From Sphingobacteriales bacterium (GTDB lineage Bacteria > Bacteroidota > Bacteroidia > Chitinophagales > Chitinophagaceae), in contig REAR01000095.1 of NCBI GenBank assembly GCA_004295245.1, positions 1-58,271 of the forward strand: 58,271 bases of DNA, read 5' to 3'. This document shows positions 32,739-47,802 of the stretch, piece after piece (the first letter of the stretch is position 1; each line of letters starts with the position of its first letter). The position numbers and the translations under genes were made by a program. The notes beneath the pieces are model-generated. The model was not told where the DNA came from. It made no database searches and was given only the letters and a program-made list of their open reading frames with translations.

Positions 32739-32869
32739 AAATAGTACAAAGGAATATCATTAAAGATAAATTAATACCATTACCCGATGAAAGCCATCAT
32801 TGTATGGATGAACCAGTAGTTATCTCCCCATCTGTTGAAAACTCTTGCGGCAGCTTAGAACCATTTAAT

Positions 32870-32877
32870 TACATTTG
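32870..32877 (+). promoter_or_regulatory. -7 promoter element of the cobalamin operon
   Basis: TACATTTG fits the Bacteroidota -7 consensus TAnnTTTG and lies immediately before the riboswitch, so transcription should start near 32883. A TTG at 32844-32846 is a possible -33 element, slightly farther away than usual. Confidence 0.6.
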
Positions 32878-32886
32878 CCCCGAATT

Positions 32887-33060
32887 CGGTTCCCGCACTT
32901 GCGGGATTAAAAGGGAAGCCGGTGTAAGTCCGGCGCTATCCCCGTAGCTGTAATTCCGCTGCAAACGCACACTTTTGAACAACTGCATCCACTGTCGGTA
33001 TTCTTAATACAAACGATGGGAAGGAGGTTCAAAAGGCGGAAAAGCCAGAAGACCTGCCAG
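32887..33060 (+). promoter_or_regulatory. Cobalamin (B12) riboswitch
   Basis: The leader contains the characteristic blocks GGGAAGCCGGTGTAAGTCCG and GCTATCCCCGTAGCTGTAA. CCACTGTCGG and GATGGGAAGG follow. The conserved B12 box, AGCCAGAAGACCTGCC, is at 33043-33058. It ends about 122 bp upstream of the btuB-like start codon and would repress the operon when cobalamin is bound. The exact ends are approximate. Confidence 0.95.
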
Positions 33061-33181
33061 TTCACAGTTAACATTCATTTTGCTTTCGGGTGAAAGGCAG
33101 GAGATGTATCAGCTTGATCGCTTTTATATTTCTATTTCTTTTATTTTCCTGGAAGCAGTCACCAAAAAACTTTTCATTAAT

Positions 33182-35065
33182 ATGAAAAAATTATTTTTTG
33201 TTGTGGCTGCCGTTTCTATCAGCAGCGCACTATCGGCCCAAAAAGACAGCAGTTTTAAAACCCTAGAAGATGTGGTTATTACAGCCACCAAGTTTCCCAA
33301 AAAACAAAGTGAAACTGGTAAGGTGCTAACCGTAATCAGTCGTCAGCAATTAGAAAGAAGCAGTGGTAAAGACCTGTCTCAATTATTAAATGAGCAGACA
33401 GGAATTATTATTAATGGCGCTACCAGTAATCCGGGCAAAGACAAATCGGTATTTTTAAGAGGCGCCAAATCTGAGTATACAGTCATTCTAATTGATGGAG
33501 TTCCGGTAACGGATCCGTCTGGTGTAGGTGGGGCTTTTGATTTACGCCTGCTTCCAATAGATCAGATAGAACGTATTGAAATTTTAAAAGGAAGCCAGTC
33601 TACCCTATACGGCAGCGATGCCATTGCTGGTGTTATTAATATTATAACCAAAAAAGCTGGCGCCAAAAAAATTGGCACCAATGGTATGCTTTCATATGGC
33701 AGTATGCATACCGTTAAAGCAACTGCTTCAGTAAATGGTGCTACCAGTGTATTAGATTACAATATTGGATACACCTATTTTAACACTAAAGGCATTAGTG
33801 AAGCCACTGATAAAACAGGCAATGGCAATTTTGATAAAGACGGTTACAAACAAAATGCGGTTAACATTAACCTCGGCATTAAAGCCACCAGTAAATTAAA
33901 AATAAGCCCCTATCTGCGTACGGCAGATTATAAAGGCAATTACGATGCGGATGCTTTTACCGATGGCAATGGAAAATATGAGTCTGACTTTTTAAACACC
34001 GGAGTAAACACACAATACCAATTGGCAAAAGGCAGTATTAGTGCCATGTATGGCTACTCAAAAACCAATCGTGTGTTTAAAACTGGTTTCGGAGATTTTG
34101 ACTATAAAGGTCGTTTCAATAACGCTGAAGTGTTTTTTAATTACGATTTACACAAACACCTGCAACTCCTTACCGGCATCAACTACCAGCAACTAAAAAT
34201 GCTGGATACCAACGCCGTTCCCAAAAATCCAGCAGTAAACTTTGTAAGCCCCTATGTTTCTTTATATCTCAGAAACCTGCAAGGCTTTAATCTAGAACTG
34301 GGTGGTCGTTACAACAGCCATTCAAAATATGGTAACACATTTACGTATAGTTTTAACCCTTCTTACCTTCTTAACAAAAACACGAAATTGTTTTTTAATT
34401 ACTCCACTGGTTTTAAAGCTCCCACCCTTTCACAACTGTATGGCCAATGGGGCAGTAACGCTAACCTGAAACCAGAAAAAAGCAACAGCGTAGAAGGAGG
34501 CATACAGGCAGATCTTGCAAAAGATAAATTAAGCCTGCGTGTGGTGGCATTTAACCGCACTATTAAAGATGCTATTACTTATGGCCAAGGATTTAGTTAT
34601 ATCAATCAGGATAAACAACACGATAAAGGTTTTGAAATAGAACCTTCCTTTATTGTAAATAATAAAATTACGGTACGCACCAGCTATGCTTTTGTTGATG
34701 GAGAAATTACTACAAAGAACAGTGGTAAGGATACTACTTATTACAATCTTATCCGTCGCCCCAAGCACAGTTTTGGAATTAATATAGCTATACAAGCAAC
34801 AGATAAACTATTCATCAGCACCAACCTCAAAACATTCAGCAAGCGTAAAGACTTATTTTATAACCCTGCCAACTTTTATGCAGCAGAAGAAGTAAGCCTG
34901 AAAGCGTATGCCTTATGGGATGTATATGCTGAATACGCTGCATATAAAAAGAAGCTGATTGTTTTTGCCGATGCAAAGAATATTACCAACAGCAAATTTA
35001 CTGAGGTGTATGGATACAACACATTAGGTTTTACAATTAATACGGGTATACGTTTTAAACTTTAA
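33182..35065 (+). CDS. btuB: Cobalamin TonB-dependent receptor (BtuB-like)
   Basis: A 627-residue receptor. I start at ATG 33182 because it begins the signal peptide MKKLFFVVAAVSISSALSAQ, whereas an in-frame ATG at 33080 would add residues with no signal peptide. A TonB-box-like DVVITATKF, a plug domain (LLNEQTGIIIN, FLRGAKSEYTVILIDGVPV) and a long beta-barrel follow. Vitamin B12 import is inferred from the riboswitch directly upstream and the cobalamin genes downstream. It is the first gene of the salvage locus. Confidence 0.92.
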   Translation: MKKLFFVVAAVSISSALSAQKDSSFKTLEDVVITATKFPKKQSETGKVLTVISRQQLERSSGKDLSQLLNEQTGIIINGATSNPGKDKSVFLRGAKSEYTVILIDGVPVTDPSGVGGAFDLRLLPIDQIERIEILKGSQSTLYGSDAIAGVINIITKKAGAKKIGTNGMLSYGSMHTVKATASVNGATSVLDYNIGYTYFNTKGISEATDKTGNGNFDKDGYKQNAVNINLGIKATSKLKISPYLRTADYKGNYDADAFTDGNGKYESDFLNTGVNTQYQLAKGSISAMYGYSKTNRVFKTGFGDFDYKGRFNNAEVFFNYDLHKHLQLLTGINYQQLKMLDTNAVPKNPAVNFVSPYVSLYLRNLQGFNLELGGRYNSHSKYGNTFTYSFNPSYLLNKNTKLFFNYSTGFKAPTLSQLYGQWGSNANLKPEKSNSVEGGIQADLAKDKLSLRVVAFNRTIKDAITYGQGFSYINQDKQHDKGFEIEPSFIVNNKITVRTSYAFVDGEITTKNSGKDTTYYNLIRRPKHSFGINIAIQATDKLFISTNLKTFSKRKDLFYNPANFYAAEEVSLKAYALWDVYAEYAAYKKKLIVFADAKNITNSKFTEVYGYNTLGFTINTGIRFKL

Positions 35066-35086
35066 TTCATTTACAAAACAAACAAT

Positions 35087-35683
35087 ATGAGCTTGCAAAA
35101 AATAAACCCCCGCTTTGCTGTACTGGCCATTATTATGATAGTAGTGGCCGCCATGCGCATACCCAATGCCGCTGCATTAACACCCTGGAGCAATTTTACA
35201 CCCATTGGTGCTATGGGCATTTTTGGTGGTGCTTATTTTTCAAACAAATGGAAAGCATTTGCTTTTCCGTTGATCACTTTATTGTTAAGCGATCTGGTAA
35301 TTAATATTTTTGTGTACAATGGCCAATATGGTGTAATGTACAACAGCTGGTATTGGGTATATGGTGGCTTTGTTGCCATTGTTATACTAGGCCGTTTACT
35401 ACTTAAAAAAATAAAACCACTTACGCTTTTATTAACAGGCGCCACCGCCACATTAGCATATTGGTTAATTGTAGACTTTGGCACCTTCCTGGTGGGTTGC
35501 ACTAATATAATTACGGGAGAGCAGATGGATCATAGTTTCAGCAGCCTGGTAAAATGTTATGCACAAGGCGCACCTTATATGAAAAATTTTTTCTTAGGCA
35601 CACTGGTTTACAGCGCAATCATGTTTGGTGCTTTTGAGTGGATGAAAACAAAATACACCAGCCTGCAGTTAAAAGCGGTTTAA
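35087..35683 (+). CDS. DUF6580-type membrane protein, candidate corrinoid-related transporter
   Basis: A 198-residue integral membrane protein with about five or six TM segments (for example FAVLAIIMIVVAAMRI, GFVAIVILGRLLL, LLLTGATATLAYWLIVD). The motif NFTPIGAMGIFGGAYF resembles ECF-transporter S components and the DUF6580 family. It lies 21 bp after the btuB-like gene, in the cobalamin regulon. A role in bringing a cobalamin precursor across the inner membrane is inference from position only. A palindromic element follows it. Confidence 0.65.
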   Translation: MSLQKINPRFAVLAIIMIVVAAMRIPNAAALTPWSNFTPIGAMGIFGGAYFSNKWKAFAFPLITLLLSDLVINIFVYNGQYGVMYNSWYWVYGGFVAIVILGRLLLKKIKPLTLLLTGATATLAYWLIVDFGTFLVGCTNIITGEQMDHSFSSLVKCYAQGAPYMKNFFLGTLVYSAIMFGAFEWMKTKYTSLQLKAV

Positions 35684-35690
35684 TTATTTT

Positions 35691-35796
35691 GTAACCAGCA
35701 GCCGTACGCTGCTCAGCTTTTGTTGCGTCGCACACTTGTACATTTGAAATACTATGGCCCAAAGTGTGCGACGCAACAATGCTTAACCGGAGTTAC
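35691..35796. repeat. Dispersed palindromic element, copy 6
   Basis: The left terminus GTAACCAGC (35691-35699) starts 7 bp after the stop of the DUF6580 gene. Cores are GTTGCGTCGCACACTT (35722-35737) and its exact complement (35762-35777). The right terminus is degenerate (CCGGAGTTAC, ending 35796). Confidence 0.9.
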
Positions 35797-35843
35797 TACA
35801 GCAGGCTATATAGCTTACCTGTTAATTATAAAACGTTGTTATT

Positions 35844-36065
35844 ATGAAACACGAAACAAAAGCCTGCAGCCGATGCAACGCAACGTTTGAATGCAAAGTG
35901 GGCGATATTGCCAATTGCCAATGCTACGGCATTGAACTGAGCGTAGGCGAAGAAGCGTTTATACAATCTAATTACACAGATTGTTTATGCCGGGCCTGCT
36001 TGCAGCAGTTAAAACAGCGCTACACATTATTTGTAGCACAAAAAGTATTGTATGCAAACCGATAG
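35844..36065 (+). CDS. Small cysteine-rich CWC-family protein
   Basis: A 73-residue protein with nine cysteines in paired arrangement (CSRCNATFEC, NCQCYG, DCLCRACLQQL). It matches the Cysteine-rich_CWC family, thought to bind metal such as zinc. Its 3' end overlaps cobU by 14 bp, so the two are translationally coupled. It is small, soluble and has no signal peptide. Its link to B12 metabolism is suggested only by position. Confidence 0.8.
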   Translation: MKHETKACSRCNATFECKVGDIANCQCYGIELSVGEEAFIQSNYTDCLCRACLQQLKQRYTLFVAQKVLYANR

Positions 36066-36576
36066 CAGCAATATAATATTAATTACCGGTGGTGCCCGCA
36101 GTGGTAAAAGCAGGTATGCGCAAGAGCTGGCATTAGCCCTTTGCCCCAACCCCGGTTATATTGCCACCGCTAAAATTTGGGATGAAGATTTTAAACAACG
36201 GGTTAACCGCCATCAGAACGAAAGAGATGAACGGTGGAGTAATTATGAAGAACAAAGAAATGTGGCAGCACTTACTGTAACCAATAAAGTTTGTGTGGTG
36301 GATTGTGTTACCCTTTGGCTGACTAATTTTTTTGTGGATACTAAAAATGATGTGCAGCAATCGCTGCAATTAATAAAAGCACAAACAGATGCACTGTTAC
36401 TGCAACCTTGCACTTATATCATCATCAGTAACGAGCTGGGCATGGGTATGCACGCAGAAACAGACATTGGCAGAAAGTTTACCGACCTGCAAGGTTGGGC
36501 CAACCAATATATTGCTGCCAAAGCTGGTAAAGTAATTTTTATGGTTAGCGGCCTGCCTTTAATTATAAAACAATAA
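36052..36576 (+). CDS. cobU: Adenosylcobinamide kinase / cobinamide-phosphate guanylyltransferase (CobU)
   Basis: CobU phosphorylates adenosylcobinamide and attaches GMP to make adenosylcobinamide-GDP in nucleotide-loop assembly. The 174 residues have a P-loop GGARSGKS (13-20), YIATAKIWDEDFKQRV and RHQNERDERW, whose His is the guanylylation residue in the family. DCVTLWLTNFF and ISNELGMGMHAETDIGRKF also match. It overlaps the CWC gene and precedes the DUF71 gene by 4 bp. Confidence 0.95.
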   Translation: MQTDSSNIILITGGARSGKSRYAQELALALCPNPGYIATAKIWDEDFKQRVNRHQNERDERWSNYEEQRNVAALTVTNKVCVVDCVTLWLTNFFVDTKNDVQQSLQLIKAQTDALLLQPCTYIIISNELGMGMHAETDIGRKFTDLQGWANQYIAAKAGKVIFMVSGLPLIIKQ

Positions 36577-36580
36577 ACCT

Positions 36581-37330
36581 TTGAACACTGTTAGCAATAA
36601 TAAACCCATACCGGCCGTATTTTGCTGGAGCGGTGGCAAAGACAGTTCTTATGCCCTGCACAAAGTAATTACAGAAGGCGTGTATGAAGTTAAATACCTG
36701 CTTAGCACATTTAATGGCGTGTACAACCGGCTGTCTATGCATGGCGTAAGAGAAGAACTGATAGCAGCACAGGCAAAAAGTATTGGCCTGCCTTTATTAA
36801 AAGTGTATGTGTATGAGGCCGACAATGCTGAATACGAGCAACAGATGAATGCCACCCTGCAATTAATAAAAGAGCAGGGCATTAACACTGTTATTTACGG
36901 CGATATTTTTTTAGAAGACCTGCGCCAGTACCGTGAAAATAAAATGGCAGCAATTGAAATGCAATGTGTATTTCCTATCTGGCAGGTAAACACGGCATGG
37001 ATGATGAATGATTTTGTGCAGCAAGGTTTTCAATCGGTTATTTGCTGTATTAACGATGGCTATTTAGATGCTAGTTGGGCAGGTAGAATTATTAACACCG
37101 CTTTTATTGCCGATTTACCAACTACCGTTGACCCTTGTGGGGAAAACGGCGAGTTTCATTCGTTTTGTTTTGATGGCCCCGTTTTTAAAACACCCATACC
37201 TATAACCATTGGAGAAAAAACGTATAAACCGTTACTTATTAAAACCACCAACCACCCTACCCCTATTAAAGATGTGGGCACCAAAGGTTTTTGGTTTTGC
37301 GATGTATTACCAGATAACAACAACTTATAA
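36581..37330 (+). CDS. DUF71/Dph6-like PP-loop ATP-dependent ligase
   Basis: A 249-residue cytosolic protein with the PP-loop ATP pyrophosphatase motif CWSGGKDSSYAL near residues 15-26. The conserved MHGVREELI, NTVIYGDIFLEDLRQYRE, CCINDGYLDASWAGR and DPCGENGEFHSF segments of the DUF71 (COG2102) family follow. It uses a TTG start 4 bp after cobU; no ATG precedes the PP-loop in this frame. One DUF71 subgroup has been predicted from gene context to act in B12 salvage, consistent with its place between cobU and cobT. Diphthamide synthesis is the other family role and does not apply in bacteria. Confidence 0.9.
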   Translation: MNTVSNNKPIPAVFCWSGGKDSSYALHKVITEGVYEVKYLLSTFNGVYNRLSMHGVREELIAAQAKSIGLPLLKVYVYEADNAEYEQQMNATLQLIKEQGINTVIYGDIFLEDLRQYRENKMAAIEMQCVFPIWQVNTAWMMNDFVQQGFQSVICCINDGYLDASWAGRIINTAFIADLPTTVDPCGENGEFHSFCFDGPVFKTPIPITIGEKTYKPLLIKTTNHPTPIKDVGTKGFWFCDVLPDNNNL

Positions 37331-37332
37331 CC

Positions 37333-38370
37333 ATGCACCTTCAACAACAACTACAGCAAAAAATTAATAACAAAACAAAGCCCCCCGGTGCATTAGGTTT
37401 GTTAGAAACTATTGCACTGCAAACAGGTTTAATACAACAAACGCTTACACCCCAAATTAAAAAACCAACTATTGTTGTTTTTGCTGCCGACCATGGCATT
37501 GCTGCCGATGGAAAAGTAAACCCCTACCCACAAGCAGTAACGGCACAAATGGTTTTAAACTTTGTGCAGGGTGGCGCCGCTATCAATGTTTTTTGCAAAC
37601 AAAATAATATTGAGCTGCTGGTAGCAGATGCCGGTGTAAATATTGTTTTTAATAGCGGCACCCCCATTACGCATGCAAAAGTTGCCATGGGCACGGCCGA
37701 CTATAGCAAGCAACCTGCTATGACTTTAGAACAAACTGCACAAGCTATTGAAAAAGGTGCCGCCATAGTAGAAGCAATTTTTAACAGTGGTTGCAATTGC
37801 ATTGGGTTTGGAGAAATGGGCATTGGCAACACATCATCTGCAGCATTGATTATGCATTACTATACACAACTGCCATTGGCGCAATGTGTGGGCAGGGGCA
37901 CCGGTGCCAACGATGCGCAACTAGCCAATAAATTACAAGTATTAGAACAAGCAGCAACGCTGCACCAGTTAATTAATAATAATTACAGCGCAGAAACAGT
38001 GTTAAGCAAAATTGGTGGATTTGAAATTGCCATGATGGCGGGTGCTTTTGTAAAAGCATGGCAATTGAATATGATACTGGTGGTGGATGGTTTTATTACC
38101 ACAGCGGCTTTATTAAATGCAAAACAGTTATTGCAACAACAGCAAGCCGATGCCAATATTTTAACCCATTGCATTTTTGCACACTGCAGCGGAGAGCAGG
38201 GGCATGAAAAAATGTTGCAACACCTGCAGGCTACACCTTTATTACAATTAGGGTTGCGCCTGGGCGAAGGAACGGGTGCAGCACTGGCTATGCCATTATT
38301 GCAAGCTGCTACTGCCTTTTTAAATGAAATGGCCAGTTTTGAAAGCGCCGGTATAAGTAACAAAGAGTAG
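37333..38370 (+). CDS. cobT: Nicotinate-nucleotide:dimethylbenzimidazole phosphoribosyltransferase (CobT)
   Basis: CobT activates dimethylbenzimidazole to alpha-ribazole-5'-phosphate, the lower-ligand precursor of cobalamin. The 345 residues contain VVFAADHGIAADGKV, VQGGAAINVF, FGEMGIGNTSSAAL, and the C-terminal LRLGEGTGAALAM whose Glu312 is the catalytic base in the family. It starts 2 bp after the DUF71 stop. Length and motif order are normal. Confidence 0.96.
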   Translation: MHLQQQLQQKINNKTKPPGALGLLETIALQTGLIQQTLTPQIKKPTIVVFAADHGIAADGKVNPYPQAVTAQMVLNFVQGGAAINVFCKQNNIELLVADAGVNIVFNSGTPITHAKVAMGTADYSKQPAMTLEQTAQAIEKGAAIVEAIFNSGCNCIGFGEMGIGNTSSAALIMHYYTQLPLAQCVGRGTGANDAQLANKLQVLEQAATLHQLINNNYSAETVLSKIGGFEIAMMAGAFVKAWQLNMILVVDGFITTAALLNAKQLLQQQQADANILTHCIFAHCSGEQGHEKMLQHLQATPLLQLGLRLGEGTGAALAMPLLQAATAFLNEMASFESAGISNKE

Positions 38371-38376
38371 TATTGC

Positions 38377-38476
38377 GATGCCAGCGGTAGTGCTACTATC
38401 ATCATCGTTGCGTCGCACACTTGTGCTGAAGTGTGCTGACGCAACGATGATGCCATAAAAAATAAATGCCGGTTAC
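38377..38476. repeat. Dispersed palindromic element, copy 7
   Basis: The left terminus is GATGCCAGC (38377-38385) and the right is GCCGGTTAC (38468-38476). Cores are GTTGCGTCGCACACTT (38407-38422) and a one-base-inserted AAGTGTGCTGACGCAAC (38429-38445), with only a 6-nt loop. It starts 6 bp after the cobT stop and ends just before cobS. The right arm GATGATGCCATAAAAAATAA is like the other copies. Confidence 0.88.
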
Positions 38477-38481
38477 ATAAA

Positions 38482-39243
38482 ATGAAAAAACAACTACATA
38501 TTTTTTTTACAGCTGTTATGTTTTACACCCGCATACCCTGCCCGGCATGGGTTAACCACGATGCGGAGTATTTAAATAAAGCCACACGGTATTTTCCGTT
38601 AATTGGCTGGCTGGTGGGTGGCGCAGCCGCTGTACTTTTTATTTTATGCAATTACCTGTTTACAACACCTGTGGCTATTTTAATTTCTATGGTAGGTACT
38701 ATTTTAATGACAGGTGCTTTTCATGAAGATGGCTTTGCAGATGTATGTGATGGCTTTGGCGGCGGATGGACCAAAGAAAAGATTTTACTGATAATGAAAG
38801 ACAGCCGCGTAGGTGCCTATGGCGTTATTGGCACCGTACTGTTGCTGTTATTAAAATTTACCAGTCTTACTGCAATAGATACTGCAATGCTGTGGAAAGT
38901 ATTGATTGCTGCACATAGTTTTTCAAGGCTATGCTCCGTGTTAATGATTGCTACCAGCCAATATGTAAGAGAAAATGAAGATGCCAAAGCAAAGCCATTG
39001 GCAAAGTCTATTACTGCAAAAGAAATTGTTCCGGCATTGGTATTTGGTATTACACCGTTGGCATTACTGGGCTCTTTTAATGTTTTAATAATTATTATTG
39101 CGCCACTCATCGGCACGTGGTGGTTGCGCCACTATTTTCATAAATGGATTGGTGGTTATACCGGCGATTGTTTGGGCAGTATACAACAGGTAACAGAACT
39201 ATTATTTTATTTAAGCACAATAGCTGTATGGAAATTTATTTAG
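38482..39243 (+). CDS. cobS: Adenosylcobinamide-GDP ribazoletransferase (CobS)
   Basis: CobS is an integral membrane enzyme that joins adenosylcobinamide-GDP to alpha-ribazole (phosphate) to give cobalamin (phosphate). The 253 residues have many membrane helices. The conserved MFYTRIPCPAW at the N-terminus, HEDGFADVCDGFGGGWTKE and MKDSRVGAYGVIG match. Its last 16 bp overlap the start of cobC. Confidence 0.95.
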   Translation: MKKQLHIFFTAVMFYTRIPCPAWVNHDAEYLNKATRYFPLIGWLVGGAAAVLFILCNYLFTTPVAILISMVGTILMTGAFHEDGFADVCDGFGGGWTKEKILLIMKDSRVGAYGVIGTVLLLLLKFTSLTAIDTAMLWKVLIAAHSFSRLCSVLMIATSQYVRENEDAKAKPLAKSITAKEIVPALVFGITPLALLGSFNVLIIIIAPLIGTWWLRHYFHKWIGGYTGDCLGSIQQVTELLFYLSTIAVWKFI

Positions 39244-39718
39244 TACGACATACCACTCCGCTAATAGAAAAAGGTATTTGCTATGGCCAGACCGATTTAG
39301 ATGTTACTGCCAGCTTTATACAAGAAGCTGTATTTATTAAAAAACAAATACCAGTAGCAGCTTACACTTTTTACAGTAGCCCTTTGCAGCGTTGCAGCAA
39401 ACTGGCAAACTATTTAGCGGGCAATACACCAGTAACGTATCACGATGATTTGAAAGAGCTGAACTGCGGCCAGTGGGAGCTGCAACCATGGGATGATATA
39501 CCCCGCCACGAAATTGACCATGCTTTAGTGCCATTGCAACCCAACAGCAACCAGCAGTTATTGTAACCCACGGTGGCGTTATCAGAAGCATTCTTTCTTT
39601 TATAACCAATACACAGCTGGCAGATTCTTTTAAAGTATTTAAGCTGCATTATGGCAGCTACAACGCCTTATACGCACCATATTATTGCCAATATTGCCAG
39701 CGCCACAGAAACACATAA
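39228..39718 (+). pseudogene. cobC: Alpha-ribazole phosphatase (CobC, histidine phosphatase), internally deleted and frameshifted
   Basis: The N-terminal half (39228-39566) has MEIYLVRHTTPL with the catalytic His and SSPLQRCSKLA. ELNCGQWE marks the family's central region. It stops early after NSNQQLL at 39566. A second frame continues to 39718 as QQQPAVIVTHGGVIRSIL, with the second conserved His. Compared with CobC/phosphoglycerate-mutase proteins, about 30 residues between the acidic region and the THGG strand are missing, so the change looks like a deletion that also shifts frame. The start overlaps cobS by 16 bp. The protein is unlikely to be active. Confidence 0.85.
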
Positions 39719-41248: not shown

Positions 41249-41355
41249 GTAACCAGCATTGGTAATACTAATCAGCAGCTGTTGCGTCGCACACTTGTAC
41301 TGAAGTTGCAGTGTGCGACGCAACGATGATGCCATGAAAAACCATTGCTGGCTAC
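41249..41355. repeat. Dispersed palindromic element, copy 8
   Basis: The termini GTAACCAGC (41249-41257) and GCTGGCTAC (41347-41355) flank cores GTTGCGTCGCACACTT (41281-41296) and GTGTGCGACGCAAC (41311-41324). The right end abuts the crtY stop codon, whose last base is the first base of the element. The right arm contains GATGCCATGAAAAACCATTG. It lies between convergent genes. Confidence 0.93.
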
Positions 41356-42509
41356 TAAAATAATTGTTTTATTGCGGCTTTAGAAAATGGCAAAAAAGGC
41401 AGGCTGCTTATTAATAACAGGTCTTCTGCAAAAGAAGTTTCATTATCAAGAAACTTAAAAATTGCTGTTGCATCATTCTTTTGAAATAGCTTGGTAAAAA
41501 TAGTAACCCCTTCCAGTTTATTATGTGCCAATAAATGCAGCAGCACACTATCGTAAAACTGAAAGCGCTTTGCAGTTAACGCTTTATTGGTAAAAGGCTT
41601 TCCTGTTTGTATAATAGCAGCAGCAATGGCAGCCGTTCTTTTTTGTATAAACTGAAAAGTATACCCACTGCTACCCTTTGTTTGGCCACCAATGGTACCA
41701 ATATAAATAACATTACCATTATAGGGTTTAAACTTATAATTGGTCATGGGTATAATACCAAACTCTTGTTCTTTAATAGTATAGTCTTTGGTAAAATGTG
41801 CTTGTATATAGGTGTGTAGTGCCGCATTGTATGCTTCTGGTGGCAACAACTGCTTTGTAAAAAGAGTGTACTCAATTAAAGCTTTGTTATTGGCAAAAGG
41901 CATGGTATAAACAAATGTAGTGCCGTGCTGTTGGCTTACTCTAAAATCCATAAAGCTGGCCTTGTTACTATCAAAGCAGGGCACCGTTGTTTCAATAGTC
42001 CACCCTTTAAAATGCTGTAACAGGTAGTGTTCATTGGGCGTTTTTAAAGAAGGGCTATTAAACACAATACTGCTGAAAACATAGTTGGCTGTAAAAACAG
42101 CATTGGCAGTGGTAACGGTAGCACCATTGTGCAGGGTATTAATTGCAGTAACTGCATCATAAATAACTGTAATGGCAGTTTCTTTTTTTATTGCTTCAAA
42201 ACAATAATTATAAAAATCAATGCCGTGTATCATTTTATACTGGTACGGGTTTATGGCATAGGTTTTAGAAAAGCCGGGGGCCATAAATTCTATCTGGTTC
42301 CAGCGGTTATGCACCAACGGTTCAAATAAACCTGTACCAGCCTCCCAAAAACACCAGGTACGGTCGTTGTGTTGTTTAGGTGCTTTATCAATTAATAAAA
42401 TAGAAGTATGCTGGTGAATACCGGCAGCCATTAGCCGCATTAACAAACTAAGGCCTGCAGCGCCAGCGCCTGCAATAATAAAATCGTAATGTTTTTTTTG
42501 TGCTGACAT
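41355..42509 (-). CDS. crtY: Lycopene beta-cyclase (CrtY-type)
   Basis: A 384-residue cyclase that converts lycopene to beta-carotene. An FAD/NAD-binding Rossmann motif FIIAGAGAAGLSL is near residues 10-22, followed by NDRTWCFWEAGTG, IEFMAPGF and a C-terminal domain with GQTKGSSGYTFQFIQ, as in CrtY/CrtL proteins. It is the last gene of the cluster and lies 55 bp after crtZ, separated by a hairpin terminator, so its expression may differ from crtZ. Confidence 0.9.
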   Translation of the reverse strand: MSAQKKHYDFIIAGAGAAGLSLLMRLMAAGIHQHTSILLIDKAPKQHNDRTWCFWEAGTGLFEPLVHNRWNQIEFMAPGFSKTYAINPYQYKMIHGIDFYNYCFEAIKKETAITVIYDAVTAINTLHNGATVTTANAVFTANYVFSSIVFNSPSLKTPNEHYLLQHFKGWTIETTVPCFDSNKASFMDFRVSQQHGTTFVYTMPFANNKALIEYTLFTKQLLPPEAYNAALHTYIQAHFTKDYTIKEQEFGIIPMTNYKFKPYNGNVIYIGTIGGQTKGSSGYTFQFIQKRTAAIAAAIIQTGKPFTNKALTAKRFQFYDSVLLHLLAHNKLEGVTIFTKLFQKNDATAIFKFLDNETSFAEDLLLISSLPFLPFSKAAIKQLF

Positions 42510-42564: not shown

Positions 42565-43050
42565 TTATTTTGATTGTTGAGCAGCAAACTCACGATCTCT
42601 TTTTACTTTTTGCCAATATTTTTTTGCGGCATACAACATGCCAAAAGATTCTCCATCTTCTTTTTCTAAATGTTTGTGGTGCATTTTATGGGCCCACCGA
42701 ATGGTTTTTACATAAGGTGTGTTCCAGCGGGTAAACCATTTAAACCGCTGATGAATAATTACATCGTGCACCATAAAATAAGCAAAGCCATAAGCCATAA
42801 TACCAAACCCAATAGCTTGCAGCCAGTATACTTCATTAAGTGTTCCAAATAGAATACATAAGAAACTGGGTACGGCAAAAATGACAAAAAAGGCATCGTT
42901 TTTTTCAAAAAAACCAGGGCCTTTTTTATGATGGTCTTCATGCAAGTACCACAAAAACCCATGCATTACATATTTGTGTGTAAACCATGTGATACCCTCC
43001 ATTATAAAAAATACGCCTGTAACAATTGCGGTGTATGCTAACCAATGCAT
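42565..43050 (-). CDS. crtZ: Beta-carotene hydroxylase (CrtZ)
   Basis: A 161-residue membrane di-iron hydroxylase that converts beta-carotene to zeaxanthin. The conserved histidine boxes are all present: HKYVMH, HEDHH, HDVIIH and HKMHHKH. Four hydrophobic segments fit the fatty-acid-hydroxylase-like topology. The gene is 11 bp after idi, so the two are likely co-transcribed. Confidence 0.93.
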   Translation of the reverse strand: MHWLAYTAIVTGVFFIMEGITWFTHKYVMHGFLWYLHEDHHKKGPGFFEKNDAFFVIFAVPSFLCILFGTLNEVYWLQAIGFGIMAYGFAYFMVHDVIIHQRFKWFTRWNTPYVKTIRWAHKMHHKHLEKEDGESFGMLYAAKKYWQKVKRDREFAAQQSK

Positions 43051-43061
43051 TTTAAAAATAT

Positions 43062-43601
43062 TTAAGCAATTTCATTAATCATGTTTTCCTGCCACCATTT
43101 CTCAATTAGCGGAAACGCTATATGAAACCATGCTGTATATTTTGATGGGTGTGATGCCAGTGATTCTTTAATATCCTGCATGGATTTATAACAATAATCG
43201 TGTACTTCATCTGTATTTGAAACAATGGTATTTTCATAGATACCTGTAAATACATGATCAAACTCAAATTCAGTCAGTCCGTTATCAAATTCTTTTTTAT
43301 ATGTAAAATCAAAAACTTTTGTCAAGCTGGTGGTAAAGCCCATTTCTTCTTGCAAGCGGCGGTTGGCAGCATCAATGGTTGCTTCTTCGGGTCTGGGGTG
43401 GCTGCAACAGGTATTGGTCCATAGCCCTCCGCTATGATATTTGTTAAGAGCCCGTTGTTGCAGTAATAATTCTCCCTTGCTATTAAACACAAAAACACTA
43501 AATGCCCGGTGCAATACGCCTTTTCTATGCACTTCCATCTTTTCCATGGTGCCTACCGGTTCATCCTGCTCATTTACTAAAATTATTTCTTCTGTATTCA
43601 T
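43062..43601 (-). CDS. idi: Isopentenyl-diphosphate delta-isomerase (type I)
   Basis: Idi interconverts IPP and DMAPP, the isoprenoid precursors for carotenoids. The 179-residue protein contains the type I Nudix-like motifs GGLWTNTCCSHPRP, with the catalytic Cys, and RRLQEEMGF. I start at ATG 43601 (MNTEEIIL). A -7 box, TACATTTG (43617-43624), lies 15 bp upstream, so the ATG at 43619, inside that box, and the one between them are unlikely to be used. It lies between crtB and crtZ. Confidence 0.92.
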   Translation of the reverse strand: MNTEEIILVNEQDEPVGTMEKMEVHRKGVLHRAFSVFVFNSKGELLLQQRALNKYHSGGLWTNTCCSHPRPEEATIDAANRRLQEEMGFTTSLTKVFDFTYKKEFDNGLTEFEFDHVFTGIYENTIVSNTDEVHDYCYKSMQDIKESLASHPSKYTAWFHIAFPLIEKWWQENMINEIA

Positions 43602-43616
43602 TGCTTGCATGCGGCA

Positions 43617-43633: not shown

Positions 43634-44470
43634 TTAAATAAGATTTAATTGATTTTTTAACCCTGCTCTTAGTACAATTAAGGCCTTGCTATAGTTGGGA
43701 ATGCGGATTCTTTCCTCAAGAATACGGGATGGCTGTGTTTTCTTTATACGCTTAAATAATGATAAGTAGTATTTATAAGCCACATACACTCCAAATCTGG
43801 CCTTCATGGGTAATTGCATAATGCCTGCGTAAGCATCATTAAAGTCTTGTTGTATATCCTGTTCTATGCGGCATTTTTCCTCGTAGGTAAAATTATTAAA
43901 ATCGCAGCCAGGGAAATAAACACGATCCATTCCATTATAATCTGCCTTCAGGTCTCTTAAGAAATTTACTTTTTGAAAAGCAGCCCCTAAAGACCGTGCG
44001 GGTGTTTTTAAATTATTGTAGTCGTCTTTATTTCCTTCACAGAAAATGTATAAACACATTAAGCCTACTACTTCTGCAGAGCCATAGATATAGTCTTTAT
44101 AAGCCTTGCAATCATATGCTTTTTTTGAAAGATCCATTTCCATACTATGAAAAAAAGCTTCAATCAGATTGCGATCGATATTATACTCATTAACGGTTCT
44201 TTGAAAACTGTGAAGTATCGGGTTAAGGCTAATGCCCCTATCCAATGCCTCGTATGTTTCCTTTTTAAATTGTTGTAACAAATAGTCCTTATCAAAGTCA
44301 TGAAAAGTATCTACTATTTCATCTGCAAAACGGACAAAGCCATATATATTAAATACAGGCTGCCGCAACTCCTGGTGCAGTAGTTTAATAGCAGAAGAAA
44401 AAGAGGTACTGTATTCCTCTGTAGTGGTGCGGCTGCATAGCTCGCTTACTTTATGAAATAATTGTATCAT
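43634..44470 (-). CDS. crtB: Phytoene synthase (CrtB)
   Basis: CrtB condenses two GGPP to phytoene. The 278 residues have both aspartate-rich motifs of squalene/phytoene synthases: DEIVD near 49-53 and DLKADYNGMDRVYFPG near 170-185. RSLGAAFQKVNFLRD is adjacent. The size is normal for the bacterial family. It lies 79 bp after crtI, with two inverted repeats in the gap. Confidence 0.95.
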   Translation of the reverse strand: MIQLFHKVSELCSRTTTEEYSTSFSSAIKLLHQELRQPVFNIYGFVRFADEIVDTFHDFDKDYLLQQFKKETYEALDRGISLNPILHSFQRTVNEYNIDRNLIEAFFHSMEMDLSKKAYDCKAYKDYIYGSAEVVGLMCLYIFCEGNKDDYNNLKTPARSLGAAFQKVNFLRDLKADYNGMDRVYFPGCDFNNFTYEEKCRIEQDIQQDFNDAYAGIMQLPMKARFGVYVAYKYYLSLFKRIKKTQPSRILEERIRIPNYSKALIVLRAGLKNQLNLI

Positions 44471-44549: not shown

Positions 44550-46025
44550 TTAGCTACCAAAATGTTTCACAACTTCATTTGCCACTACTTCTCCGCTTAT
44601 GAGGCTGGGCGGCACCCCTGGCCCCGGCACGGTTAATTGCCCTGTATAAAAAAGGTTGTTTACTTTTTTACTTCTGCAGGATGGTTTTAAAACAGCAGTT
44701 TGCATTAAGGTATTTGCTAAGCCGTATGCATTCCCTTTAAAACTATTGTAAGCACTTACAAAATCGCTGTGGGCAAAAGATTTTTTATATACCACAGCAC
44801 TCTTTATTTCCTGGCCTGTAATTTTCTCCATTCTGGTTATGATCTTATCAAAATAAAAATCTCTGAGTGCTTCCGTATCTCCGCTAAGCCCTGCTGCTAC
44901 GGGTATTAAAAGAAAAAGATTTTCGCATCCGCCTGGTGCTACCGTATCATCAGTAACGGATGGAGTGCTTACATAAAATAAAGGATTTTTGGGCCAATCT
45001 TTTGTAGTATAAATTTCTGTTGCATGGGGCTCAAAGGGCACATCAAAGAAAAGTGAATGATGCAGGATGTTTTTTAGTTTTTTGTTTAGGCCCACATAGT
45101 ATAAAATGCAGGAAGGAGCCATTACCCTTTTATCCCAGTATGCTGCTGAGTATGACTGGTGTGAAGCCGGGAGTAATGCAGATTCTATAAAATGATAATC
45201 AGCGCCGCCTATTACCACATCTGCCTGCCATTCTTTAGTAGTTGTAGTTACTTTTTGGGCAATATTATTTTCTACTGTTATGGCTTTTACGTTCTCATTA
45301 AATAGAAAGGTAACGCCTAATTCTACCGCTAGTTTATGCATAGCATCTACAATGCTAAACATACCTTTTTCGGGGTACCAGGTGCCACCCACGATGTCTG
45401 CATAATTCATTAGACTATACAATGCCGGTGTATTTTCTGGTAAAGCCCCTAAAAAAAGCACCGGAAACTCTAAAATCTGACGGATTTTTGCAGCTTTGAA
45501 ATACTTATGGACATGTGTTTTCATTGAAGTAAACACATCCAGTTTGAAAACGCCTTTAATAACCTGCCAGTCTAAAAACTCTGTAAGCGACTGACCGGGT
45601 TTAAACACCAGTTTTTGTATACCTACTTTATATTTATAAGCTGCTTCTTCCAAAAATTTTTCTAGTTGCAATGCAGCACCAGGTTCGATATTTTCAAAAA
45701 GCAATTTTAGTTGCTGCAGGTCTGATGGTATATCCATAGGTCCATCTGGCCAATAAATTCTGTAAGAAGGTGTAAGGCGGGTGAGTGAATAATAATCGGC
45801 TGTTACTTTGCCAAATTGCTGAAAATACCGATCAAACACATCGGGCATCCAATACCAACTGGGGCCCATGTCAAATGTATATCCTGCTTCTTTTAACTGG
45901 CGGGCTCTGCCGCCGGGGCTAGCATTTTTTTCTAATACTGTTACCAGCCAACCAGCTTTTGCTAAGAAAGATGCTGCAGAAAGACCCGCAAACCCGCTAC
46001 CTATTACTATGGCTTTTTTTTTCAA
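44550..46025 (-). CDS. crtI: Phytoene desaturase (CrtI-type)
   Basis: A 491-residue FAD-dependent desaturase that converts phytoene to lycopene. The dinucleotide-binding motif VIGSGFAGLSAASFLA is at about 7-22 and is followed by GGRARQLKEAGYTFDMGPSWYWMPDVFD, where GPSWYWMP is typical of CrtI. The C-terminal NLFYTGQLTVPGPGVPPSL matches the bacterial CrtI signature. It is the first carotenoid gene of the cluster downstream of the sigma factor. Confidence 0.95.
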   Translation of the reverse strand: MKKKAIVIGSGFAGLSAASFLAKAGWLVTVLEKNASPGGRARQLKEAGYTFDMGPSWYWMPDVFDRYFQQFGKVTADYYSLTRLTPSYRIYWPDGPMDIPSDLQQLKLLFENIEPGAALQLEKFLEEAAYKYKVGIQKLVFKPGQSLTEFLDWQVIKGVFKLDVFTSMKTHVHKYFKAAKIRQILEFPVLFLGALPENTPALYSLMNYADIVGGTWYPEKGMFSIVDAMHKLAVELGVTFLFNENVKAITVENNIAQKVTTTTKEWQADVVIGGADYHFIESALLPASHQSYSAAYWDKRVMAPSCILYYVGLNKKLKNILHHSLFFDVPFEPHATEIYTTKDWPKNPLFYVSTPSVTDDTVAPGGCENLFLLIPVAAGLSGDTEALRDFYFDKIITRMEKITGQEIKSAVVYKKSFAHSDFVSAYNSFKGNAYGLANTLMQTAVLKPSCRSKKVNNLFYTGQLTVPGPGVPPSLISGEVVANEVVKHFGS

Positions 46026-46119
46026 GTAACTATTAATTTATAATGCTTTGTTGCCACTTCATTTACCGATGAAGTGATTGCGACGCAACGATGATACCAG
46101 TGGCACTACAGCTGGTATT
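46026..46119. repeat. Dispersed palindromic element, copy 9 (degenerate)
   Basis: The right core TGCGACGCAAC is at 46079-46089, preceded by GATGAAGTGAT as in the copy near 13600. The left half forms CACTTCAT / ATGAAGTG (46055-46062 and 46069-46076). The right terminus is GCTGGTATT (46111-46119). It lies between the sigma-factor stop and crtI and may affect read-through. Confidence 0.65.
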
Positions 46120-46145
46120 ATTATTTGATAAGATAAGAAAGTTTT

Positions 46146-46646
46146 TTAGAAGCGCTGTATTTGTTCTTTTAGCAATTTGCGTGCAAAATGGATACGGCTT
46201 TTAATGGTACCTAATGGCTCGTTTAAAACATGTGCAATCTCGTGGTATTTATACCCATCAAAATATAACAAAAAGGGATTTCTGAAAATTTCGGGCAGTT
46301 GCTGTACTGCTTTCTGAATTTCTTTGAGTTTGATGGCTGCTTCTGCACCATTAGCAACAGCAGGCTGATTTTGATTTAAAAAATACTCATTTGGGGTACT
46401 ATCAATAATGGTGTTTTGCTTTGCCTTTCTACGATAATTATTAATAAAAATATTACGCATGATAGTGTAGAGCCAGGCTTTTATATTGGTGCCTACATTG
46501 TATTTTTCTTTATTTGCCAAGGCACGATACAATGTTTCCTGGTAGAGATCTTGCGCAGTGTCATTGTCTCTTGTAAGAGTAACTGCAAAAGGTTTTAAAA
46601 ATTCTGCATTGTTTACCAATAACTGGTTGAACTCGATCGTTGACAT
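46146..46646 (-). CDS. ECF-type sigma factor of the carotenoid cluster
   Basis: A 166-residue sigma factor. Region 2 spans about 12-76 (LKPFAVTLTRDNDTAQDLYQETLYRAL, then WLYTIMRNIFINNYRRK), and region 4 about 110-160 (LPEIFRNPFLLYFDGYKYHEIAHVL, PLGTIKSRIHFARKLL). The start is placed at ATG 46646 (MSTIEFNQLL) because 18 further codons have no conserved content and would overlap the promoter. It is located between the MerR regulator and crtI. Expression is likely repressed through the two inverted repeats upstream. Confidence 0.9.
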   Translation of the reverse strand: MSTIEFNQLLVNNAEFLKPFAVTLTRDNDTAQDLYQETLYRALANKEKYNVGTNIKAWLYTIMRNIFINNYRRKAKQNTIIDSTPNEYFLNQNQPAVANGAEAAIKLKEIQKAVQQLPEIFRNPFLLYFDGYKYHEIAHVLNEPLGTIKSRIHFARKLLKEQIQRF

Positions 46647-46652
46647 AATATT

Positions 46653-46740
46653 CTGTTTAATAATTACAAGTGCAAATTTAAACAGATTTTTTGAAGGCAA
46701 CCAAATTTTTGTTTAATTATTTATTAAATCTATTAAACAA
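46653..46740 (-). promoter_or_regulatory. Sigma-factor promoter region with two TTGTTTAA-type inverted repeats
   Basis: On the minus strand a -7 box TAAATTTG is at 46673-46680, and TTTG-like bases at 46702-46705 sit at -33 distance. CTGTTTAAT (46653-46661) with TTTAAACAG (46677-46685) overlaps the -7 box. TTGTTTAAT (46709-46717) with ATTAAACAA (46732-46740), spacer 14 bp, lies just upstream of the -33 region. These are candidate MerR/CarH-like operator sites. Confidence 0.6.
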
Positions 46741-46759
46741 AAAATAACTGAGGGCTATT

Positions 46760-47638
46760 TTATAAAGTAGCTACATATTCAGTTACTTCTGAGAGTGCCC
46801 TTTTAAAATTGACGTTGGCGGGGACCTTTTTTTTGTAGTGCTGGGTAATCTGACCAGATACAACTAATTTAAAATCATTCAGTTTTATCTGTACCTGCGT
46901 TAAAAATCGCTCAAAATTGAAATTAGCTGCTACTGCTGTTAGGTGGCTGTACAAGTAGTCTGGTTTTTTTAATCGGGCAACAAACTCTATATCAGAAACA
47001 GGCACATTTGCACCAAGATATAATGTTTTTACCCCCCGGGCTTTTAACATATAATACATGTATAATAACCCTAGTTCATGATGTTCTCCTTCTGGTAAAA
47101 AAAGTAAAACAGTTTTGTTTGACTGCAAATGTGTAAAAGCCCCTTCGATACCTACGATGAGTTTTTGCCTGATTATATTGGTAACAAGATGCTCCTGAGC
47201 AGGATTAACATGATTGGTAAGCCACAAAATACCGATGCGCTCTAAGAAGGGGAATATAACCTGTGTGATTGTACGGTCGATCCCTTTTGAATTGATATGA
47301 TTATCCAACACCTGCTCAAACTGCTCCATATCCAAGTCAATCATATGTTGAATGAGGGTGTTTACAATACGCTCTTGCTGCGCCTGCATACTTGAAAGCG
47401 AGAGTAATTTTTCCTTTATCTCACCCTCAGACATCTTGTCTATATGAGAAATTTTATACCCATATTTATTAAGGAGAGAAATGTTCAATATAATTTTCAG
47501 CTCATCATTACTGTAAAACCGAATATTGGTTTCAGTTCTGTTGGGTTTAATAAATGAGTAGCGCTGTTCCCATATTCTTATGGTATGCGCCTTGATACCC
47601 GACAGGTTTTCCAGATCTTTTATTGTAAACGCATTCAT
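46760..47638 (-). CDS. MerR-family regulator with CarH/LitR-like B12-binding domain
   Basis: A 292-residue regulator. An N-terminal MerR helix-turn-helix (ENLSGIKAHTIRIWEQRY, residues 10-27) is followed by a helical bundle and a cobalamin-binding-like fold. Trp139 is nine residues from Glu149-His150, matching the CarH W-x9-EH adenosyl-capping motif. His187 in EHHELG is the expected lower axial ligand, and the SHL motif (231-233) also fits. The residue after the Trp is Leu140, where Thermus CarH has the His that caps cobalt after light exposure. It should repress in the dark with adenosylcobalamin and release on light. It is upstream of the ECF sigma gene and the crt genes. Confidence 0.9.
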   Translation of the reverse strand: MNAFTIKDLENLSGIKAHTIRIWEQRYSFIKPNRTETNIRFYSNDELKIILNISLLNKYGYKISHIDKMSEGEIKEKLLSLSSMQAQQERIVNTLIQHMIDLDMEQFEQVLDNHINSKGIDRTITQVIFPFLERIGILWLTNHVNPAQEHLVTNIIRQKLIVGIEGAFTHLQSNKTVLLFLPEGEHHELGLLYMYYMLKARGVKTLYLGANVPVSDIEFVARLKKPDYLYSHLTAVAANFNFERFLTQVQIKLNDFKLVVSGQITQHYKKKVPANVNFKRALSEVTEYVATL

Positions 47639-47665
47639 ACCATATATTACAATATCAGTTTTAAA

Positions 47666-47697
47666 TTGTTTAAAATCAAAACTAAAATATTAAACAA
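47666..47697 (-). promoter_or_regulatory. merR promoter with a TTGTTTAA-type inverted repeat
   Basis: The arms TTGTTTAAA (47666-47674) and ATTAAACAA (47689-47697), with a 14-bp spacer, have the same spacing as the site upstream of the sigma gene. The minus-strand -7 box TAGTTTTG (47677-47684) lies inside the spacer, 38 bp from the start codon. The pattern suggests autorepression by the MerR-type regulator. Confidence 0.6.
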
Positions 47698-47802
47698 TAC
47701 GATTTTGTTAACCGAACTTTCTAAAATCAATTTCATTAATTAAACAACTAGTAGCGCTTAAATAAGCCTAGCGCTTTTCAATTAGTGATAAAAAAGATGG
47801 AA

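Follow-up and report, generated by a model that had tools for sequence, protein, structure and literature searches.

In the LitR/LitS system of Streptomyces coelicolor, a light-regulated MerR-B12 gene adjoins an ECF sigma gene and crt genes. In T. thermophilus CarH (TtCarH), His132 forms the bis-His adduct of the light state. The known CarH operators are composed of three or four tandem 11-bp direct repeats (PMC8156234, PMC9304148), and the CarH subsite has been defined as nnnnTnnACAn (PMC9304148). For Bacteroidota, no description of a CarH/LitR operator, or of the operator sequence treated below, was found in the literature searched, which leaves out most subscription journals. A Chryseobacterium with light-induced carotenoids has been reported for which no regulator was recognised (PMC7064467), and light-induced pigment regulation in Bacteroidota is a question left open by papers such as this one.

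A locus that bears on this question lies in a 58,271-nucleotide stretch of DNA from a Sphingobacteriales bacterium of the Chitinophagaceae (assembly GCA_004295245.1, contig REAR01000095.1), the whole of which is referred to here as the window. As in the LitR/LitS system, a gene of the MerR-B12 type adjoins an ECF sigma gene and crt genes, and three inverted repeats (dyads) are placed around it. Judged from the sequence, these very probably serve as operators for the MerR protein whose gene they surround, and this protein would be a LitR/CarH-family AdoCbl photoreceptor-repressor of Bacteroidota. The dyad suggests that a known B12-photoreceptor family has an operator of a design not yet described, and a single pattern gives access to the way in which light may turn on carotenoids and DNA repair throughout the phylum.

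A carotenoid locus with three dyads

The regulator gene merR (46760-47638, minus strand; 292 aa; Pfam MerR_1, B12-binding_2 and B12-binding) is directly followed by the gene for a 166-aa ECF-type sigma factor (46146-46646, minus strand). The latter matches Sigma70_r2 and Sigma70_r4_2 as well as, above cut-off, TIGR02937 (sigma70-ECF), and is assigned to the ECF group by the presence of regions 2 and 4 only and by the ECF profile. Then, likewise on the minus strand, follow genes for a crtI-type phytoene desaturase (CrtID, 44550-46025; NF058655 above cut-off), the crtB phytoene synthase (43634-44470; PF00494), an idi-type NUDIX isomerase (43062-43604; PF00293), a crtZ-like hydroxylase of 161 aa (42565-43050) and a crtY-type lycopene cyclase (41355-42509; PF05834). 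The crtZ-like gene gave no Pfam or NCBIfam match despite its clear crt neighbours, and its name is taken from its position and from His-rich motifs.

Since the interval between the sigma and crtI genes does not exceed 30 bp in 80 of 118 loci, the two genes probably form one operon, transcribed from the promoter that carries the dyads O1 and O2 (see below), and are probably repressed together. The window's own gap measures 120 bp (46026-46145), and crtI could have its own promoter. This gap is longer than that of most relatives and contains the hairpin CACTTCATCGGTAAATGAAGTG; a start signal of crtI or a terminator may lie here. Reading by eye of 24 longer sigma-crtI or sigma-idi gaps revealed no shared element that would represent an ECF-specific promoter before crtI.

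The dyads, to which no strand is assigned, are candidate operators upstream of the sigma gene and of merR. O1 (46653-46685; CTGTTTAA-N17-TTAAACAG) lies over the -7 box of the sigma gene, O2 (46709-46740; TTGTTTAA-N16-TTAAACAA) just upstream of its -33 box, and OmerR (47666-47697; again TTGTTTAA-N16-TTAAACAA) 28-59 bases before the merR ATG. O2 and OmerR are perfect dyads of the same geometry, with 8-base arms and 16 bases between the arms. This bears out the sequence-only reading of the locus, which had described two inverted repeats of identical spacing at these positions and had written their centre as (A/T)-N14-(A), equivalent to the N16 used here. The related site that it had placed over the sigma -7 box is also borne out, as the left arm of O1, read on the strand of the sigma gene, runs into TAAATTTG. 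Counted between 7-base arms, the gap is 17 in O1 and 16 in both O2 and OmerR, and the centres of O1 and O2 are 55.5 bp apart. Further upstream of merR, a single extra half-site (TTAAACAA on the plus strand, 47740-47747) has no partner in register. A CRP/FNR-type site was rejected for the dyads, whose total length of 30-31 bp and gap do not fit the features of such sites.

The 8-base-arm pattern with a gap of 14-16 occurs twice in the window and in none of 100 dinucleotide shuffles. Throughout the 3.37-Mb genome, the exact 7-base-arm dyad has three copies, namely O1, O2 and OmerR, and the reversed pattern, used as a control, has none. With 8-base arms, no copy with one mismatch exists in the genome, all other copies having two, and with 7-base arms and a gap of 16 there is no further copy with one mismatch or fewer. 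For a gap of 17, 46653-46685 is the sole exact copy; there are five one-mismatch copies, four of which fall inside ORFs, the fifth being upstream of no gene. No exact or one-mismatch dyad was found before other genes of this genome, including the surroundings of its nine fasciclin-domain matches, and the dyad is thus confined to the merR-sigma locus. A genome search of this kind had been proposed in the earlier reading, with many unrelated copies as the outcome that would speak against an operator, and this outcome did not occur.

The -7 consensus of Bacteroidota is TAnnTTTG (PMC7366714). With a TTTG as -33 box (46702-46705, minus strand), a spacer of 21 bases and a perfect -7 box TAAATTTG (46673-46680, minus strand), the predicted promoter of the sigma gene is of the textbook Bacteroidota type. 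O1 begins in the -7 box and extends downstream, and O2 stops just short of the -33 box, which therefore lies between the two dyads. Within OmerR, the putative -7-like box of merR, TAGTTTTG, is found (47677-47684, minus strand); a -33 box was looked for upstream of merR and none was seen. That this dyad lies inside the merR promoter, as had been proposed, is hence likely, given that it covers the -7-like box, but less certain than the corresponding assignment for the sigma gene.

Conservation of the dyads and their partner genes

Among 149 genomes of the same family, 94 contain a homologue of the regulator, and 64 relatives' loci in which merR is followed by the sigma gene served as the main promoter set. 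O1 is present close before the sigma ATG and over the -7 box in 61 of these 64 loci (shuffle rate 0.2%) and O2 in 42 (shuffle rate 0.8%), and in the 41 promoters with both, the centre-to-centre distance is 55-57 bp in 38. The arms are near-invariant, with nearly full information, and the spacer and flanks are variable. In an unbiased count of inverted 7-mer pairs, TGTTTAA-N17-TTAAACA ranks first (48/64 promoters). The same promoters contain no conserved direct 7-mer pair and no excess of TnnACA at 11 bp; tandem 11-bp CarH repeats were rejected, none being conserved in this set. Inside merR coding sequence, no exact dyad was found. The TA of the left O1 arm is that of the -7 box, TAnnTTT is kept in 51 of 63 relatives with O1, and a TTTG at a spacer of 20-21 is seen in 22 of the 63 (background 0.005 per position). 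By these sequence features, O1 contains an ordinary primary-sigma -7 box.

The arms are AT-rich, as is intergenic DNA, which could invite the view that the dyads are chance palindromes or terminator-like hairpins. The probability of this is practically nil, as neither the window shuffles nor the reversed-pattern control in this genome yielded a copy, and the fixed position and gap of O1 in nearly all of the relatives already exclude chance.

The dyad accompanies the regulator. Within the family it occurs in 67 of 76 genomes with the regulator versus 8 of 55 without it, and in 296 Bacteroidota genomes the exact 7-base-arm dyad occurs in 52 of 58 with the regulator versus 20 of 238 without it, counts that ignore the relatedness of the genomes, so that Fisher p-values overstate the association. 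Genomes without the regulator do not differ from the reversed-pattern background (0.10 versus 0.105 dyads per genome). Moreover, the dyad is carried by 79 of 86 crt-linked MerRs versus 3 of 34 non-crt paralogues. This link to the regulator, together with the overlap with the -7 box among the relatives and a half-site that fits the CarH subsite, strongly supports the repressor-operator arrangement that the sequence-only reading had put forward. Within the family, a number of sites resemble chance occurrences, such as one inside a coding sequence and one before the gene for ribosomal protein S10.

Both O1 and O2 precede the sigma gene, and at four loci the dyad stays with this gene where merR lies elsewhere in the genome. 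The dyads might hence belong to the ECF sigma factor, as an autoregulated promoter or as the site of a sigma-linked regulator. This is very improbable, since the dyad is kept at five loci with merR directly before crtI and no sigma gene at all, which dissociates the dyad from the sigma factor and connects it with the regulator. Families without the sigma gene retain the dyad immediately upstream of crtI. In one of them, probably Flavobacteriaceae, merR is followed at once by crtI, crtB and crtZ, and several genomes have the dyad in front of merR or in the merR-crtI interval. In addition, OmerR precedes merR, sigma promoters are not palindromic in form, and the -7 box in O1 is of the primary-sigma kind.

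With the dyads assigned to the regulator, control of its own gene may be considered, as had also been suggested. Of 90 loci, only 25 have a dyad upstream of merR (0.5 expected from shuffles), although a single TTAAACAA often persists there, in 24 of 70 (expectation 0.6); conservation of O2 and OmerR is lower than that of O1. Autoregulation is plausible in the window's genome, where a perfect dyad covers the -7-like box. A role of the sigma factor in driving the crt genes, which the sequence-only reading had taken for granted, is hypothetical.

In several genomes, dyads are also found beside other genes. They occur next to fasciclin-domain genes at seven loci (six genomes, two families), which from this placement look like members of the regulon, at TetR_C_23 genes and an SDR epimerase (five loci), at a GTP cyclohydrolase I gene (one locus), and at photolyase, SOUL and PTPS genes (two loci). 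In genomes of one genus, dyads are located upstream of a photolyase operon, in the interval that separates PTPS from SOUL-photolyase genes, and at a merR-crtI locus without sigma gene. In the probable Flavobacteriaceae family, TetR_C_23 regulators, some divergent from the DUF1731 SDR epimerase, share the dyad, which might represent a second regulator layer. At two loci from two genera (L131, 2990-3020; L132, 3041-3070), a START_2 gene and a primary-type sigma-70 gene flank the dyad, which could be chance or a real target. Of the dyad-linked genes, those for photolyase, GTP cyclohydrolase I and SDR have counterparts in the Pseudomonas LitR regulon (PMC9758184), and the photo-oxidative set of Rhodobacter lists a fasciclin protein, folE2 and an SDR (PMC7074977). 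The target sets thus agree with a light response.

The regulator and a possible light switch

The regulator has an N-terminal winged-helix MerR DNA-binding domain (PF13411, E 6e-13, above cut-off), followed by B12-binding_2 above cut-off and by B12-binding at 27 bits, below the cut-off of 32.1. Its nearest solved relative by PDB sequence match is T. thermophilus CarH (E 4e-21). In an AlphaFold model (pLDDT 89.7), the C-terminus is a four-helix bundle plus a Rossmann B12-binding domain that matches the CarH fold; superposition on the CarH cobalamin domain gave a Z of 17.2 and an rmsd of 3.1 A over 193 residues at about 20-22% identity. With the CarH equivalog (NCBIfam NF052513), the score is 109.5 bits, far below the curated cut-off of 400, and by sequence the protein is hence placed in the LitR/CarH family, not as CarH itself. 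The W-x9-EH motif around the Ado group and the ExHxxG motif with the lower-ligand His are present. W139, E149, H150 and H187 align with W131, E141, H142 and H177 of TtCarH, each being kept in 81-82 of 82 dyad-linked relatives. His132 of TtCarH is replaced by Leu in the window's protein and is His in 3 of the 82. The DNA-binding wing reads NIR in 79 of the 82 dyad carriers, and all 11 NHR proteins are without dyad. The window's genome encodes a second MerR-B12 paralogue (C84:10154-10936; 38% identity), which is not crt-linked, lacks a dyad and belongs to the NHR-wing class.

On the plus strand of the window (32869-39566), a cobalamin riboswitch, for which the genome search gave no second copy, is followed by genes for a BtuB-like receptor, cobU, cobT, cobS and a cobC-like protein. 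This B12 uptake and assembly operon is separated by ~2 kb from crtY and by 7 kb from the gene of the B12-type regulator. An adenosyltransferase gene is located elsewhere in the genome. By this gene content, B12 is available to the host of the regulator.

The missing His132 and the nearby riboswitch operon raise an alternative in which the MerR protein does bind the dyads, as a B12- or light-independent repressor similar to CarA or in response to another signal such as B12 supply or redox. Precedents are M. xanthus CarA, which binds B12 without needing it (PMC8156234), and class II LitRs, which rely on a partner LOV protein (PMC9758184). This alternative is unlikely, though to be taken seriously: the lower-ligand His is kept in essentially all dyad-linked members, as are the Ado-pocket Trp and Glu-His, and the linked genes are a typical light-induced set.

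Activation in place of repression, by MerR-type promoter remodelling or from the upstream O2, is improbable. Many MerR proteins are activators, and O2 has an activator-like position upstream of the -33 box, but the best-conserved dyad is O1, which covers the -7 box and start region, where a bound protein would block the polymerase. Furthermore, the characterised LitR/CarH proteins repress (PMC8156234, PMC9758184).

For the favoured AdoCbl photoreceptor-repressor, we infer binding, its stoichiometry, dependence on AdoCbl and light, and repression rather than activation from the features above, and release in the light from what is described for the LitR/CarH family. In the dark, the AdoCbl-loaded protein would sit on O1, over the -7 box and start region, and on O2, immediately before the -33 box, perhaps as one symmetric dimer per dyad that reads two inverted TTAAACA (TnnACA) half-sites 24 bp apart; a symmetric dimer bridging both arms is the simplest guess. 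As a pair, O1 and O2 would shut the promoter of the sigma-crtI operon, O2 possibly adding cooperativity or blocking upstream polymerase contacts. OmerR could be occupied by the same protein, which would cover the -7-like box of its own gene. Then, light would break the Co-C bond and release the protein, so that the sigma factor and crt genes are transcribed.

These proteins may represent a B12 photoreceptor-repressor class of the Bacteroidota's own, a reading that is somewhat favoured. Such a class would be characterised by the lack of His132, by strict dyads of inverted subsites 24 bp apart, by a double lock of two dyads 55-57 bp apart on a primary-sigma promoter, and by a phylum-wide photo-oxidative-stress regulon. 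The latter would comprise crt, ECF sigma, photolyase, GTP cyclohydrolase I, SDR, TetR and fasciclin genes and could be read from genomes by one pattern. If this holds, the light-state chemistry must differ from that of TtCarH.

Relation to described CarH and LitR systems

The closest likeness in protein architecture is to the CarH proteins of T. thermophilus and Bacillus megaterium, which share the MerR domain, the four-helix bundle with the Rossmann B12 domain, the W-x9-EH motif and the lower-ligand His. The half-site TTAAACA contains TAAACA, an instance of TnnACA with near-invariant columns, and thus fits the subsite of these proteins, whose operator likewise overlaps a carotenoid-gene promoter. 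In contrast, tandem 11-bp direct repeats there are replaced by inverted half-sites 24 bp apart here, and His132 of TtCarH is absent. If true, this would add a symmetric operator with wide spacing to those that CarH-type proteins can recognise, and members lacking His132 would be numerous; both points bear on the mechanism and on the use of these proteins as optogenetic switches.

The class II LitR proteins of Pseudomonas (PmlR2/PplR1) likewise use two sites per promoter, built from separated half-sites (TGTACA-N12-TGTACA); one site is on the -35, and the other falls between the transcription start and the ATG (PMC9758184). They differ in this half-site and gap from TGTTTAA-N16/17-TTAAACA, and they lack a complete B12 domain, answering to a LOV partner instead (PMC9758184).

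In operator layout, CarA/CarH of Myxococcus xanthus at Pcrt is similar: of two proposed inverted repeats, the first precedes the -35 and the second is on the promoter, and two dimers bind cooperatively to this segment of ~55 bp (PMC9304148). The CarQ sigma factor of M. xanthus is part of a separate CarR/CarS pathway and thus differs from the sigma factor encoded here. Also, the inverted repeats at Pcrt decay even within the suborder, and the segment has been read as 11-bp repeats as well (PMC9304148), whereas the dyads described here, 30-31 bp each with centres 55-57 bp apart, are near-invariant across the phylum.
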